Part shown: piece by piece, positions 24,018 to 30,295 of the stretch
Layout of the letters: each line of letters begins with the position of its first letter
How positions within the stretch are numbered: the first letter of the stretch is position 1
Assembly (NCBI GenBank): GCA_001281695.1
Contig: LJIE01000001.1
Location: forward strand, 874,107-938,106
DNA: 64,000 nt
Source: a bacterium 336/3
GTDB taxonomy: Bacteria > Bacteroidota > Bacteroidia > Cytophagales > Thermonemataceae
Reading direction: 5' to 3'
Position numbers and translations under genes: made by a program
The notes under the pieces: generated by a model
What the model was told of the DNA's origin: nothing
Database searches by the model: none
The model's input: only the letters and a program-made list of their open reading frames with translations

Positions 24018-24497
24018 ATGACAACACTTTTTTTATTTCCAAACTCATGGAAAAAAGTAGGATGGGGGCTTTTTATCATTCCTATAATAGTTTGTATGTA
24101 TTTCTGGATAACAGAAAGTTCAATGGATGCAATATTAAAAACAAAGGTCTTTGCTATCTATCATGATGAGTTTTTAGGAAAGACTGGGTTTTTCCAAATC
24201 ATAGAAAATCATATTTTAGATGAGCTACTATTGATTACTTGTTTGATAGGAGGCTTGATGGTGGGGTTTGGCAGGACAAAAATTGAGGATGAAATGGTCA
24301 CAGCAATTCGATATGAAAGTCTGGTTTGGGCAACCTATTTTAATATCACATTTGTGATTTTGGGGACAGCTTTCATTTATGGAGTTGGTTATTTTAATTT
24401 TATGATTATTAGTATGATTTCATCTTTAGTTTTTTTCATTATTCGTTTTCAAATTAAATTATATTTGATTCAGAAAGGAGGAAACCATGACGAATAA
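24018..24497 (+). CDS. Small integral membrane protein paired with an XRE regulator
   Basis: Protein of 159 residues with four predicted membrane segments (about 13-31, 66-86, 103-123, 127-147), an acidic loop and a short cytosolic tail. It resembles the small membrane proteins (DUF2178-like) that are often coded just before a minimal YozG-type helix-turn-helix regulator. Its last 11 bases overlap the start of that regulator, so the two are translationally coupled. The function of such pairs is unknown; a membrane sensor that holds or tunes the regulator is one possibility. Confidence 0.65.
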   Translation: MTTLFLFPNSWKKVGWGLFIIPIIVCMYFWITESSMDAILKTKVFAIYHDEFLGKTGFFQIIENHILDELLLITCLIGGLMVGFGRTKIEDEMVTAIRYESLVWATYFNITFVILGTAFIYGVGYFNFMIISMISSLVFFIIRFQIKLYLIQKGGNHDE

Positions 24498-24687
24498 AAT
24501 CAAAATACACAGAGCCATTAAAGATATTTCACAGGAGCAATTGGCTCAAGCTATTGGTGTGAGCAGGCAAACTATTAATACAATGGAAAAAAACAAGTAT
24601 GTTCCTTCTACTGTGTTGGCTTTAAAAATTGCGAAATATTTTGGTGTAATGGTTGAAGAAATTTTTTTCCTTGAAGAAACAGATTAA
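24487..24687 (+). CDS. Minimal XRE-family transcriptional regulator
   Basis: A 66-residue protein that is almost only a helix-turn-helix domain: SQEQLAQAIGVSRQTINTMEKNKYVPS is the recognition unit, followed by LALKIAKYFGVMVEEIF. This is the YozG or Cro/C1-like short form. It overlaps the upstream membrane-protein gene by 11 bases. The perfect palindrome upstream of the pair is its most likely binding site. It lacks any ligand-binding domain, so the signal would have to come through the membrane partner or from protein level. Confidence 0.9.
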   Translation: MTNKIKIHRAIKDISQEQLAQAIGVSRQTINTMEKNKYVPSTVLALKIAKYFGVMVEEIFFLEETD

Positions 24688-24704: not shown

Positions 24705-24733
24705 TTTAAAGTAAAAAACTTGCTCATTCGTCT
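24705..24733 (+). promoter_or_regulatory. ECF-type promoter, copy 1 (before the sigma gene itself)
   Basis: AAAGTAAAAA, 11 bases, CGTCT (24729-24733). The whole 29-bp stretch matches copy 3 at 26013-26041 at 27 positions. CGTCT is a classic ECF -10 element. It lies before the sigma factor gene, implying autoregulation. Confidence 0.7.
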
Positions 24734-24765
24734 TCGTGTGTATGAAGACCGTAATGAATTTATCA

Positions 24766-25314
24766 ATGGCTCAAAAAAACTCCATATCCATCACCGAAAC
24801 TGTCAAGAAATACAGCAAAAAGTTATTTGGATTTATTCGGGGTAAAGTAAAATCTTCGGAAGATGCCGAAGACATTTTACAAGATATTTGGTATCAGTTA
24901 AGCAATATAGATCCGGATAATTTGGAGAATGTAAATGCTTGGTTGCACCGAGTTGCTCGAAATAAAGTAACAGATAGTTATAGAAAGAAAACAAATGAAC
25001 TTTTAGAAGATTATGCTTATGAAAATGAAGAAGGAGAGTTGAATTTTAAAGAAATACTTCTTTTAGATGATAGTAACAATCCAGATTTAGAATTTTTCAA
25101 AGAAACATTCTGGCGAGAGCTTATGGAGGCTTTGGAAGAATTACCTGAAAAACAAAGGCAGGTTTTTATGATGAATGAAATAGAAGACTTAACTTTGCAA
25201 GAAATAGCAGACCAAACAGGTGAAAATCTCAAAACAATTATCAGCAGAAAACAATATGCTATAAAACATCTGAGAAATAAGCTAGGCTATTTGTATGAAG
25301 AACTAAACTATTAA
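24766..25314 (+). CDS. ECF RNA polymerase sigma factor
   Basis: Sigma-70 family factor of about 182 residues with region 2 (KLFGFIRGKVKSSEDAEDILQDIWYQL, the core-binding and -10 reading part) and region 4 (ALEELPEKQRQVFMMNEIEDLTLQEIADQTGENLKTIISRKQYAIKHLR, the -35 reading helix-turn-helix). The frame is open from GTG 24736, and ATGs lie at 24742, 24754 and 24766. I prefer 24766 because it puts the start 32 bases after the CGTCT element, matching the 30 and 31 bases seen at the two sister promoters. It heads a unit with the next gene (stop and ATG one base apart). No classical anti-sigma gene follows. Confidence 0.9.
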   Translation: MAQKNSISITETVKKYSKKLFGFIRGKVKSSEDAEDILQDIWYQLSNIDPDNLENVNAWLHRVARNKVTDSYRKKTNELLEDYAYENEEGELNFKEILLLDDSNNPDLEFFKETFWRELMEALEELPEKQRQVFMMNEIEDLTLQEIADQTGENLKTIISRKQYAIKHLRNKLGYLYEELNY

Positions 25315-25315
25315 A

Positions 25316-25654
25316 ATGATGAAAGCATCTCCCAATTCTGATAAAAGATGGCTTGCCTTTCCAATTTTACTGGTGGCTTTGGCTGCTGGAAGTGCTGCTG
25401 TATGGCTTCTTTGGAATTGGTTGATGCCTGAAATATTCAAACTACCTCAAATTTCGTATTGGCAAGCGATGGGATTATTAGTACTATCTCGATTACTTGT
25501 GGGAGGGTGGGGTTCTAGAAAATCACATCATCGAACACCCTTCGAGAAAGAAGCTTTTAAACAAAAGTTTATGAATATGACAGATGAGGAAAAGCTGAAA
25601 TTTAAAGAAGAATGGAAACAACGTTGTAATAAACAAAACCCATCAGATAACTAA
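25316..25654 (+). CDS. Small membrane protein coupled to the ECF sigma factor
   Basis: Protein of 112 residues with two membrane segments, the second being the conserved stretch WLLWNWLMPEIFKLPQISYW continuing into QAMGLLVLSRLLVGG. After it comes a charged tail (about 65-112) with FEKEAFKQKFMNMTDEEKLKFKEEW and a Cys. Proteins of this kind are widespread in Bacteroidota beside ECF sigma factors but have no known function. Position one base after the sigma stop suggests a sensor or an anti-sigma-like role; this is inference. Its tail shares the NM[TS]-acidic motif with the product of 25756-26022. Confidence 0.75.
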   Translation: MMKASPNSDKRWLAFPILLVALAAGSAAVWLLWNWLMPEIFKLPQISYWQAMGLLVLSRLLVGGWGSRKSHHRTPFEKEAFKQKFMNMTDEEKLKFKEEWKQRCNKQNPSDN

Positions 25655-25669
25655 ACTGATGGGTTTTTT
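25635..25669 (+). terminator. Terminator overlapping the 3' end of the sigma/membrane-protein unit
   Basis: AAAACCCATCAG (25635-25646) and CTGATGGGTTTT (25656-25667) form a 12-bp stem followed by T residues. The left arm lies inside the last codons of the preceding gene and its TAA is in the loop. Confidence 0.88.
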
Positions 25670-25696
25670 AATTTTTTTCAAAATAATTTCAAAATA

Positions 25697-25725
25697 ATTA
25701 AAGTAAAAATTCTATTTGTACGTCT
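25697..25725 (+). promoter_or_regulatory. ECF-type promoter, copy 2
   Basis: AAAGTAAAAA, 11 bases, CGTCT (25721-25725), the same layout as copies 1 and 3 though the 11-bp spacer differs in sequence. That difference suggests the two outer blocks are what is conserved. ATG follows 30 bases later. Confidence 0.65.
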
Positions 25726-25755
25726 GCATAGTTGTAACCCAAAATTTCTACAACT

Positions 25756-26022
25756 ATGGTGAAATCAATTTTTAAATCGGTATTGATAGGTGTATTGCTT
25801 GGTGCGATGGCATTTTTTGTACCTGTCTTTTTGGTCAGTATGTTTATTTTATTTGGACTGGCTCGTCTTTTCGGAGGCAAACGCAGAGAAAAATGGATGT
25901 ACTATCAAATTCGTTTTGCTGAAAAAATACGCAATATGAGTGAAGATGAATATACACAATTTAGAGTCTCTTTAGCATCTGCAAGGTGCAATTATCAAAA
26001 AGAAGCTACGCCTTTAAAGTAA
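25756..26022 (+). CDS. Small membrane-anchored protein of the ECF locus
   Basis: Protein of 88 residues: one long hydrophobic segment (about 8-38) possibly forming a hairpin, then FGGKRREKW and a charged tail KIRNMSEDEYTQFRVSL with a Cys. The layout (hydrophobic part, Gly-Gly, basic stretch, then NMSEDE) is a short version of the product of 25316-25654, so the two may be distant paralogues. Family unknown to me. It has its own copy of the ECF promoter motif, and its stop codon lies within the third copy. Confidence 0.65.
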   Translation: MVKSIFKSVLIGVLLGAMAFFVPVFLVSMFILFGLARLFGGKRREKWMYYQIRFAEKIRNMSEDEYTQFRVSLASARCNYQKEATPLK

Positions 26023-26041
26023 AAAAGTTTCTCATTCGTCT
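26013..26041 (+). promoter_or_regulatory. ECF-type promoter, copy 3
   Basis: AAAGTAAAAA, 11 bases, CGTCT (26037-26041); differs from copy 1 at only two of 29 positions. It starts inside the end of the preceding gene. The next ATG (26073) is 31 bases away. Confidence 0.7.
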
Positions 26042-26072
26042 ATCTATTTACAACTCTTAAACTCGTACAGCT

Positions 26073-26231
26073 ATGAATAGAAAATCAAAAATAATCGTAG
26101 GTTTTTTGGCTGCTGCCATCACTTTCGGAAGTCTTGTGGCTTTTGTAAAACCACATCATAAGCATAAACATGCTTGTCATCAATCAAATATCAAAGAAAA
26201 TCAAAAAACAAACCCTCAACCCTCAAAATAA
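26073..26231 (+). CDS. 52-residue His-rich exported peptide
   Basis: A short gene with a basic start (MNRKSK), a hydrophobic stretch (IIVGFLAAAITFGSLVAFV) acting as signal or anchor, then the metal-ligand-rich KPHHKHKHACHQ and a polar tail. It is placed between an ECF promoter copy and the Hsp20 gene, whose ATG comes 2 bases after this stop, so they should be cotranscribed. The His/Cys cluster could bind a metal such as Zn or Cu in the periplasm. No family recognised. Confidence 0.6.
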   Translation: MNRKSKIIVGFLAAAITFGSLVAFVKPHHKHKHACHQSNIKENQKTNPQPSK

Positions 26232-26233
26232 TT

Positions 26234-26659
26234 ATGTTCAAAGGATTTCATTCAGCAGGTAGCTCACATGGTTGTGGCTCTGCATATCAGAAACAATACT
26301 TTATGCCTCATTTTACAAAAGGAGGTTATCGCAGACCTAAATACAATGTTCCCATGAACGTTGTAGAGTCGGAAACAGCTTATGAAGTGCATGTATTTGC
26401 AGTAGGTTTTGAGAAAGAACATATTTCTCTTACAGTGGTAGATGATGTACTCTATATCAGTGGAACAAAAACAATAGAAGCTTCTCCAAATTTCACTCGC
26501 CAAGAGTTTCCTGTCAAAAATTTTGAAAGAACACTCAACTTAAATGGGCAAGTAGATGTGGAAAACATTAGTGCAAAATCTGAAAATGGAGTTTTGATAG
26601 TATCTTTACCCAAAACTAAAGAAGCTCAGAAAAAAGAGTATAAAGTAGAAGTAAAATAA
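26234..26659 (+). CDS. Hsp20/alpha-crystallin small heat-shock protein
   Basis: ATP-independent chaperone of about 141 residues. The alpha-crystallin domain covers about 38-135: YNVPMNVVESETAYEVHVFAVGFEKE opens it, and the conserved ENGVLIVSLPK box closes it. A Lys/Glu tail follows. The N-terminal arm is unusual, rich in Gly, Ser, His and aromatic residues. The frame is open upstream to 26174, but that part overlaps the His-rich peptide in another frame, and the ATG at 26234 is 2 bases after its stop. Control by the ECF promoter copy 3 links it to envelope stress instead of the general heat-shock response. Confidence 0.9.
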   Translation: MFKGFHSAGSSHGCGSAYQKQYFMPHFTKGGYRRPKYNVPMNVVESETAYEVHVFAVGFEKEHISLTVVDDVLYISGTKTIEASPNFTRQEFPVKNFERTLNLNGQVDVENISAKSENGVLIVSLPKTKEAQKKEYKVEVK

Positions 26660-26660
26660 A

Positions 26661-26688
26661 AAAAGCCTGTGTACTACACAGGCTTTTT
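26661..26688 (+). terminator. Rho-independent terminator of the ECF locus
   Basis: AAAAGCCTGTGTA (26661-26673) pairs with TACACAGGCTTTT (26675-26687), tight loop, then T. It lies directly after the Hsp20 stop and closes the locus. It may also serve the convergent minus-strand gene. Confidence 0.9.
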
Positions 26689-28471: not shown

Positions 28472-29626
28472 TTATTGAAAAAATTCTTTCATTTTTTCAA
28501 AGAAACTTTTTTCACTTTTATCTGGGGATGGCATAAAATTTTTAGAATTTCGGAGTTTTTCTAAAATAATTTTTTCATCTGGAGTTAATTTTTTTGGTGT
28601 CCAAATATTGATATGTACCAATTGATCACCACGCTCATATCTCTGAATATCTTTTACTCCTTTTCCTTTAAGCCTTAAAATCTTGCCACTTTGAGTGCCT
28701 GGCTCTATTTTGATTTTCACTTTACCATCAATAGTGGGAACTTCTACAGATGCTCCAAGAGCTGCGTCTACAAAACTGATATATAAATCGTATATAATAT
28801 TGCTACCATCACGTTTGAGTTGTTCGTCTTCAGCTTCTTCAATTACTACATATAAATCTCCATATTGTCCACCACGCTGAGGATAATTTCCTTTTCCAGC
28901 AATAGAAAGTTGCATACCTTCCATCACACCAGCAGGCACACGAATAGGAATGATTTCCTCTTCTAATACTCGTCCTTCACCTACACAAACATCACATTTT
29001 TGACTAATTATTTTTCCAGTACCTTCGCAAGTAGGACAAGTGGCTGTACTTATCATCTGACCAAGCATGGTGTTAGTAACTCTTCTTACTTGCCCTGTGC
29101 CTCCACAAGTTCCACAATTTTGTAGAGAAACTCCATTTTTGGAACCATTGCCATTACATGACTTACAAGCTACATGACGTTTTACTTTTATTTTCTTTTC
29201 TGAACCTTCAGCTACTTCTTGTAGGGTAAGCTTGAGTTTAATACGTAAATTTGTTCCTCTTCTCATGGTTGCACCTCTTCCACCTCCACCTCCGAAAAAA
29301 CTTTCAAAACCACTCCCTCCGCCAAAAATATCACTAAATCTAGAGAAAATATCTTCCATATCCATACCTCCACCAAAATCTCCATATCCAGCTCCACCAG
29401 CTCCTAAACCTCCATGTCCAAACTGATCATAACGTTTGCGTTTTTCTGTATCTGAAAGAACTTCATAGGCTTCTGCAGCTTCTTTAAATTTCTCTTCAGC
29501 CTCATGATTACCAGGGTTTTTATCTGGATGATATTTGATAGCAAGTTGGCGATATGCTTTTTTTAATTCTTCGGGTGTAGCTGTACGTGCTACCCCTAAT
29601 ATTTCATAATAATCTCTCTTTGCCAT
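28472..29626 (-). CDS. dnaJ: Chaperone DnaJ
   Basis: Full-length type I Hsp40 of 384 residues and co-chaperone of DnaK. The J domain is residues 1-70 with the HPD tripeptide in KYHPDKN. A Gly/Phe-rich linker follows (about 72-125), then the zinc-binding domain with four CxxCxGxG units ([32 protein letters not shown], about 150-220). The C-terminal substrate-binding domains complete it. It lies 9 bases after grpE on the same strand; dnaK is not in the window. Confidence 0.97.
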
Positions 29627-29635
29627 AGTTGTATT

Positions 29636-30226
29636 TTAGTTTCCTATTACTACTTTGGCAAAACGAACTACTTTTTCGCCTAAATAATAACCTTTTTCTA
29701 CTGTATCAATCACTTTACCTTTCAGTTCTTCGGATGGGGCAGGTACTTGAGCAATGGCTTCATGCTTGTCTGGGTCAAAATCTTGCCCATTAGACTCCAT
29801 CACCACCAAGCTTTGTTTTTCTAAGAATTTAGAAAACTTCTGATAAATCAAGTTAACACCTTCTTTTGCTGTTTCTATTTTTAATTCAGGAGTTTCAAAA
29901 GATTTGAGGGCTCTTTCAAAATCATCAAATACTGGCAGAATATCTGTCAGTAATTTGGCATTGGCTTGCTCTAAAAAATCTATTTTTTCTTTAGCTGTTC
30001 TGCGTCTAAAATTTTCAAAATCAGCGTACAATCTCAAATAAGAATCTTTTTGTTCAGCTAAATTTTTCTCTAGCAAACGTACTTTTTCTTCTAAAGAAGC
30101 AGAAGCATTGTCCTGATTTTTTACTTCTTCTGTTTTTTCTTCAGGAGTTGTATTTTCTTTTGATTCTTGAGGAGTTTCTTCTCCTACTTTAGTTTCTTTA
30201 AGTTCGTCTTGATTCATATTTTCCAT
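29636..30226 (-). CDS. grpE: Nucleotide exchange factor GrpE
   Basis: Exchange factor for DnaK, about 196 residues. A Glu-rich disordered start (with EETPQESKENTTPEEKTEE) leads into a long helix (LEEKVRLLEKNLAEQKDSYLRLYADFENFRRR) and the C-terminal beta domain. The GrpE signature is seen in VLPVFDDFERAL and the end motif VEKGYYLGEKVVRFAKVVIG. The frame opens at 30271, but the ATG at 30226 (or 30217) gives a normal N-terminus. It is first gene of the grpE-dnaJ pair. Confidence 0.95.
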   Translation of the reverse strand: MENMNQDELKETKVGEETPQESKENTTPEEKTEEVKNQDNASASLEEKVRLLEKNLAEQKDSYLRLYADFENFRRRTAKEKIDFLEQANAKLLTDILPVFDDFERALKSFETPELKIETAKEGVNLIYQKFSKFLEKQSLVVMESNGQDFDPDKHEAIAQVPAPSEELKGKVIDTVEKGYYLGEKVVRFAKVVIGN

Positions 30227-30265
30227 AAAAATAAATAGCTTTTGAGATGCAATTATCAATTTTTT

Positions 30266-30295
30266 TGCCAAAGGTTTTTTATGACAGAATGGCAG
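30266..30295 (-). promoter_or_regulatory. Candidate promoter/operator of grpE-dnaJ
   Basis: On the minus strand CTGCCATTCTGTCAT is followed by AACCTTTGGCA. AACCTTTG differs from the -7 consensus by one base, and TGCCA/TGGCA form a short inverted repeat around it. The TSS would fall about 35 bases before the chosen start. Use as a heat-shock control site is a guess from its position. Confidence 0.3.

Follow-up and report, generated by a model that had tools for sequence, protein, structure and literature searches.

A local ECF sigma factor cassette with conserved predicted promoters and a candidate membrane anti-sigma factor in the Cytophagales bacterium 336/3

In Bacteroidetes, a recognizable brake seems to be missing for most ECF sigma factors, as class I anti-sigma domains adjoin only 6% of these sigma factors; the authors who reported this proportion suggest that other anti-sigma classes dominate in this group (PMC7406223). 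In Acinetobacter, the 107-aa protein AabA, which is encoded after SigAb, has been shown to inhibit SigAb (PMC12153292). With regard to chaperone genes, those encoding GroEL, DnaK and DnaJ in Flavobacterium psychrophilum have sigma-54 promoters (PMC9723704). For Bacteroidota, neither an ECF-Hsp20 unit nor the small two-TM membrane protein F2 described below was the subject of any paper retrieved in a literature search; F2 may be listed as a conserved neighbor in the re-classification of ECF sigma factors (10.1093/nar/gkaa1229).

Analysis of a 64,000-nucleotide stretch of the genome of bacterium 336/3 (the window, to which all positions refer) identified a cassette of five genes that begins with an ECF sigma factor (Table 1). 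This cassette probably represents a positively autoregulated ECF unit that is restrained by a membrane partner of its own, F2. The gene set, the promoter copies and their conservation, the linkage and co-diversification of F2 with sigma and the tail common to F2 and F3 are evident from the sequences; recognition of the promoters by sigma, inhibition of sigma by F2 and feedback by F3 are the steps that we infer. The genes predicted in the first-pass annotation of this DNA do exist, with Hsp20 and the sigma factor accompanied by a His-rich exported peptide and a pair of small membrane proteins. P0002, however, which directly follows the sigma gene, had not been recognized there as a distinct element of what is a five-gene unit.

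The sigma factor F1 carries regions 2 and 4 only, as found in the ECF group (group 4) of the sigma-70 family, with a length in the class of approximately 180-200 aa, and matches the NCBIfam sigma70-ECF family (5e-23; 81.5 bits, cut-off 42.9). Alternative in-frame ATGs are possible upstream at 24742 and 24754; the start was placed at ATG 24766 because ATG 24742 coincides with the predicted +1. The F2 gene starts 1 base after the sigma stop codon. Orthologues of the sigma factor, with 53-65% identity, are present in several families of the order and none was found in seven sampled genomes from its own genus and family; this absence from close relatives could reflect a recent gain or repeated loss. 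The named relatives are MAGs of Chitinophagaceae, Saprospiraceae and Flavobacteriaceae. The hairpin that closes the first unit was not reported by a terminator scan with a loop limit of 8. Directly upstream of P1, a 159-aa membrane protein is overlapped by a 66-aa Cro/C1-type regulator (24018-24687; HTH_3 4e-13), and dnaJ and grpE (28472-30271, minus strand) form a second chaperone cluster less than 2 kb from the cassette and near the Hsp20 unit.

Table 1. Predicted features of the sigma factor cassette (window positions)
Feature	Position	Strand	Description and basis
Promoter P1 (predicted)	24708..24733	+	-35 AAAGTAA, -10 CGTCT; predicted +1 A 24742; exact motif, conserved before sigma orthologues, +1 purine conserved
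F1 (P0001)	24766..25314	+	ECF sigma factor, 182 aa from MAQKN; Pfam Sigma70_r2 9e-11, Sigma70_r4_2 3e-13
F2 (P0002)	25316..25654	+	112 aa, two-TM hairpin and cytosolic helical tail, candidate anti-sigma factor/sensor; family alignment A1, sigma linkage, AlphaFold, charge topology
Terminator-like hairpin	25638..25672	+	Hairpin resembling an intrinsic terminator, with T-run, at the end of unit 1; ACCCATCAG-N9-CTGATGGGTTTTTT, -12.9 kcal/mol
Promoter P2 (predicted)	25700..25725	+	Predicted +1 G 25734; exact motif; second site 3' of sigma in 20/45 loci
F3 (P0003)	25756..26022	+	88 aa, different membrane hairpin and F2-type 29-residue C-terminal tail; hhalign; family A3
Promoter P3 (predicted)	26016..26041	+	Predicted +1 A 26050; exact motif; -35 box overlaps F3 stop codon
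F4 (P0004)	26073..26231	+	52 aa; helix at the N terminus (signal/anchor), His-rich tail; 10-member family, same place in other cassettes
Hsp20 (P0005)	26234..26659	+	Small heat shock protein, 141 aa; Pfam HSP20 3e-17; syntenic relatives; no apparent signal peptide
Terminator hairpin	26660..26688	.	3' of Hsp20, T-runs in both directions; -17.8 kcal/mol

Three exact copies of AAAGTAAAAA-N11-CGTCT, confined to 1.34 kb of the forward strand, constitute the predicted promoters. The identical spacing noted previously was found again, with the earlier starts (24705, 25697 and 26013) including 3 extra bases; recounting also gave the same 27 of 29 identical positions between copies 1 and 3. The reported distance of 30-32 bases from motif to ATG was measured here, from CGTCT, as 32 bases for the sigma gene (using ATG 24766), 30 for P0003 and 31 for P0004, and the predicted +1 positions leave leaders of 22-24 bases. 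A search of the whole genome (4.71 Mb in 13 contigs) yielded exactly three perfect matches, all in the cassette. With up to 2 mismatches, 70 matches were found in the genome compared to 78 for a reversed control pattern; near-matches of the motif are therefore noise, and those checked in the window genome were intragenic or had no downstream gene. The simplest reading of this arrangement is three transcription units, i.e., sigma-F2, F3 and F4-Hsp20.

Further analysis used 89 oriented loci found by either sigma or F2, of which the 45 with a sigma match of at least 150 bits were scanned for promoters, the range searched at the sigma start extending from -160 to +90 around the first ATG. At the start of the orthologous sigma gene, AAGTA-N15-CGTC was present in 20 of the 45 loci, compared to 0 of 4,293 control intervals drawn from these loci; when the pattern was relaxed to AARTA with a spacer of 14-16, it was present in 32 of the 45 and in 21 of 4,375 control intervals (0.5%). 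The loci are related, so these counts are not independent trials, although they span many genera with 34-61% GC. A strict site within 4 kb downstream of sigma was found in 20 of the 45 loci (21 sites, all on the sense strand and none antisense). The distance from the start of the sigma gene is usually about 950-1,100 bases, which places the site after F2 and before F3 or Hsp20. Only the window locus showed two downstream sites in the strict scan, and P3 therefore looks like a local addition. Among 34 non-redundant sites, bases outside the anchored pattern were conserved as well: position -1 was A in 34/34 and position -2 was T in 32/34, and CGTC was followed by T in 30/34, with C two bases later in 26/34. 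Base 9 after CGTCT was a purine in 97% of these sites, preceded by a pyrimidine in 74%; since a purine after a pyrimidine is expected of a transcription start, the +1 positions were placed accordingly (Table 1), and this conserved purine is likely to be the actual +1. Both promoter sequence and conservation are strong for a CGTC-type -10 with a -35 at the sigma gene. The predicted promoters of the cassette, and its autoregulation, are very probably real.

Regulon members beyond the cassette were sought in the window genome and 19 others with AAAGTAW-N14-CGTCT, a pattern that may miss sites with a different -35. These 20 genomes contained 47 matches, compared to 77 for the reversed control; 17 of the 47 were located in the cassette, which represents a minute share of those genomes, and all matches fell within the cassette in the window genome and two others (G098 and G126). 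Most of the extra matches that were inspected look random, being intragenic or lacking a conserved downstream gene. The regulon thus looks local, and the motif recurs before orthologous genes across Bacteroidota, with nothing convincing found elsewhere in the genomes. This recurrence and locality support the previous description of a self-contained, autoregulated ECF unit with a repeated promoter.

F2 relatives, which share the consensus LWNaiLP...WQAxGLLvLxrILFGGF...KWmnMSxEERxkFKExWxxRC (alignment A1), adjoin every close homologue of the sigma factor. When genomes were searched by the F2 family alone, matches were found in 72 of 395 sampled Bacteroidota genomes (strong in 54), and an ECF sigma gene adjoined F2 in 58 of 60 loci chosen in this way. 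When 20 further homologues were chosen by sigma similarity, F2 was present in 16/16 loci at or above 104 bits and in 0/4 loci at or below 74 bits, the latter carrying an unrelated small protein of 70-83 aa in the place of F2. Sigma precedes F2 in most loci; in four the order is reversed, and the two genes nevertheless stay together. Four genomes have two sigma-F2 pairs, in which F2 distances were 0.66-1.30 (A-A) and 0.82-1.66 (B-B) within types and 2.41-3.01 (A-B) between types; F2 copies of one type are therefore closer across genomes than the two copies in one genome, mirroring the sigma factors, and F2 appears to co-diversify with sigma, paralogue by paralogue. In Proteobacteria, the pair was found on large plasmids (L238, L239, L240 and L241 overall), with F2 as the first gene in Pantoea and sigma as the first gene in Burkholderia and Caballeronia; on these plasmids, F2 is either annotated merely as a hypothetical protein, as in Pantoea, or is not annotated. 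A plasmid search with P0002 as the query gave no match, even though the proteobacterial F2 is plain by eye beside sigma.

No Pfam or NCBIfam family was found for F2 above cut-off, none of the known anti-sigma families or structures was matched in Pfam, NCBIfam and PDB profile searches, and the F2 model had no match among PDB folds. AlphaFold2, run with eight sequences, gave a model of modest quality (pLDDT 70, pTM 0.32) with helices at residues 6-40, 48-62, 75-86 and 90-107; the last two, predicted with moderate confidence, form the C-terminal tail, for which the PDB profile search gave no sequence similarity to the class II protein CnrY. Mean net charges across 97 members were +3.0 for the segment preceding TM1, -0.25 for the loop and +3.7 for the segment following TM2, which by the positive-inside rule places both ends in the cytosol (N-in/C-in). 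Class I (ASDI) partners have an N-terminal cytosolic domain of more than 50 aa, compared to approximately 12 residues before TM1 in F2, which therefore cannot be assigned to class I. The most conserved part of F2 is the membrane hairpin rather than the tail, and one copy (L074) has no tail motif. Of 103 F2 tails, 76 have a Cys among their final 12 residues. The Metal_resist/Spy-CpxP family (PF13801) was matched weakly by 3 of 21 F2 members (best 9e-4) and not at all by the window protein; a role of F2 as a Spy/CpxP-like periplasmic sensor was rejected, as the charge-based topology puts the tail in the cytosol. The first-pass annotation was right in the literal sense that the locus lacks a classical anti-sigma gene, but the sigma-adjacent P0002 family is tied to this sigma clade and is the best non-classical candidate. 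From genetic linkage and co-diversification, we consider it fairly likely that P0002 is a non-classical membrane anti-sigma factor; the failure to match known anti-sigma families, the stronger conservation of the hairpin than of the tail and the tailless L074 copy count against this role.

The homology between F2 and F3 is limited to the tail (hhalign profiles, probability 95.5, E 1.5e-8) and their membrane parts differ. F3 thus combines its own sigma-type promoter with the cytosolic segment of F2, which fits feedback inhibition. Family and structure look-ups gave nothing above cut-off for F3 and F4, F4 having no Pfam family; HMG-box and ion-channel matches for F2-F4 were regarded as chance. 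The Hsp20 protein carries an alpha-crystallin domain (PF00011, 3.1e-17; 63 bits, cut-off 20.8). The downstream trio of F3, the His-rich F4 and Hsp20 seen in the window recurs in ten further loci, which represent several families, and Hsp20-like genes occur in 19 loci overall. Elsewhere in the clade, TetR-TolC-MFP-RND efflux genes follow in 9-11 loci, a gene for a 71-aa protein in 8 loci, and a DnaJ-type gene accompanied by one for a small membrane protein with an F3-like tail in 5 loci. In loci of the latter type (L157, L158, L160, L161 and L162), the membrane protein follows F2 and a J-domain protein further downstream replaces Hsp20. A conserved protein of approximately 71 aa with no convincing Pfam family was seen to adjoin sigma-F2 in L154, L170, L171, L173, L177, L182, L183, L187 and L222. 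An apparent neighbor cluster of ABC transporters was dropped, as the ATPases grouped in it are unrelated; the one from the window lies 5 kb away. Given that the outputs vary among loci, the clade has the appearance of a general stress switch whose outputs can be exchanged, Hsp20 being one of them. The earlier label of "envelope stress" is just one reading, as Hsp20 is cytosolic and other clade members are found beside efflux pumps or a DnaJ-type protein; metal stress (suggested by the His- and Cys-rich tails), membrane stress and protein-folding stress all fit as the inducing signal.

Under the proposed mechanism, the F2 hairpin at rest, with both of its ends cytosolic, would hold sigma via its short helical C-terminal tail. 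Membrane or protein stress, possibly also metal stress, would change F2 and free sigma, and sigma-RNA polymerase is predicted from promoter conservation to read TAAAGTAAWW-N13-CGTCT at P1 (sigma and F2), P2 (F3) and P3 (F4 and Hsp20). F2 would be remade together with sigma, F3 could add negative feedback by presenting the same tail on another anchor, and F4 and Hsp20 would, judging from their families, do the protective work. We therefore propose P0003 as a feedback copy, and the His-rich peptide with Hsp20 as one of several interchangeable outputs.

A sigma activator or a constant effector would also be tightly linked to sigma, as F2 is. F2 could be an output of the autoregulated unit, such as a membrane stabilizer or metal handler, with sigma controlled by transcription, proteolysis or an unlinked regulator. 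The position of F2 behind P1, where it is made together with sigma, and its lack of a known anti-sigma domain are consistent with this, and the tail Cys residues and weak Metal_resist matches hint at metal binding. This explanation is nevertheless unlikely, as the neighbors are swapped (Hsp20, TetR-TolC-RND or DnaJ type) while F2 stays constant in both gene orders and in two phyla, and effectors usually turn over whereas cognate regulators do not. The same linkage and co-diversification would suit a positive partner, i.e., a membrane sensor or anchor needed for the activity or stability of sigma; however, a small membrane protein encoded immediately downstream of an ECF gene is generally an anti-sigma factor, as is the case for AabA (PMC12153292), and we regard a positive role as quite improbable. 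That the repeated motif reflects chance, or a repeat element without promoter function, might be argued from the AT-rich genome and from near-matches that are no more common genome-wide than those of the reversed control, but the sites keep their position, strand, spacing and flanking bases across loci with GC contents of 34-61%, which makes such an origin extremely improbable.

The F2 family offers a concrete candidate for a sigma brake, one for which the sigma clade and the promoter are defined and start sites are predicted. In addition, the promoter-sigma-F2 set is compact and apparently locus-specific, which would suit an orthogonal regulator for Bacteroidota. Beyond this locus, the chances seem evenly balanced that F2 founds an unrecognized anti-sigma class, which would consist of a membrane hairpin with a minimal C-terminal cytosolic docking tail, would serve a widespread ECF clade in Bacteroidota and Proteobacteria, and would include F3-type proteins as sigma-induced feedback inhibitors with the same tail.

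Among described systems, RpoE-RseA and other class I (ASDI) systems resemble the cassette in having an autoregulated ECF sigma factor and an adjacent gene for a membrane partner; unlike those partners, F2 has no ASDI domain, a segment of only approximately 12 residues before TM1 and no periplasmic domain. The SM6 promoters of F. psychrophilum differ in that they control T9SS genes, with no Hsp20 cassette described in the consulted passages of that study (PMC9723704). The SigAb-AabA-AabB system (PMC12153292), likened to F1 and F2 here by its description, shares autoregulation of an ECF sigma factor, a very small direct regulon, a CGTT-type -10 and a small membrane anti-sigma factor encoded directly after sigma; it differs in its -35 (GTCAAC), its periplasmic partner AabB and its lack of Hsp20. 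In the class II pair CnrY/CnrH, a membrane-anchored protein needs no more than a short helical piece in the cytosol to hold the ECF sigma factor, as in the model for F2, and two helices are involved in both. F2 differs from CnrY in having two TMs and a C-terminal tail, its profile did not match CnrY in the PDB search, and F1 and CnrH are not closely related (E 2e-4). By analogy, F2 would act like the partners in CnrY-CnrH or SigAb-AabA, with a short cytosolic segment of a small membrane protein holding the sigma factor (PMC12153292, PMC7406223).
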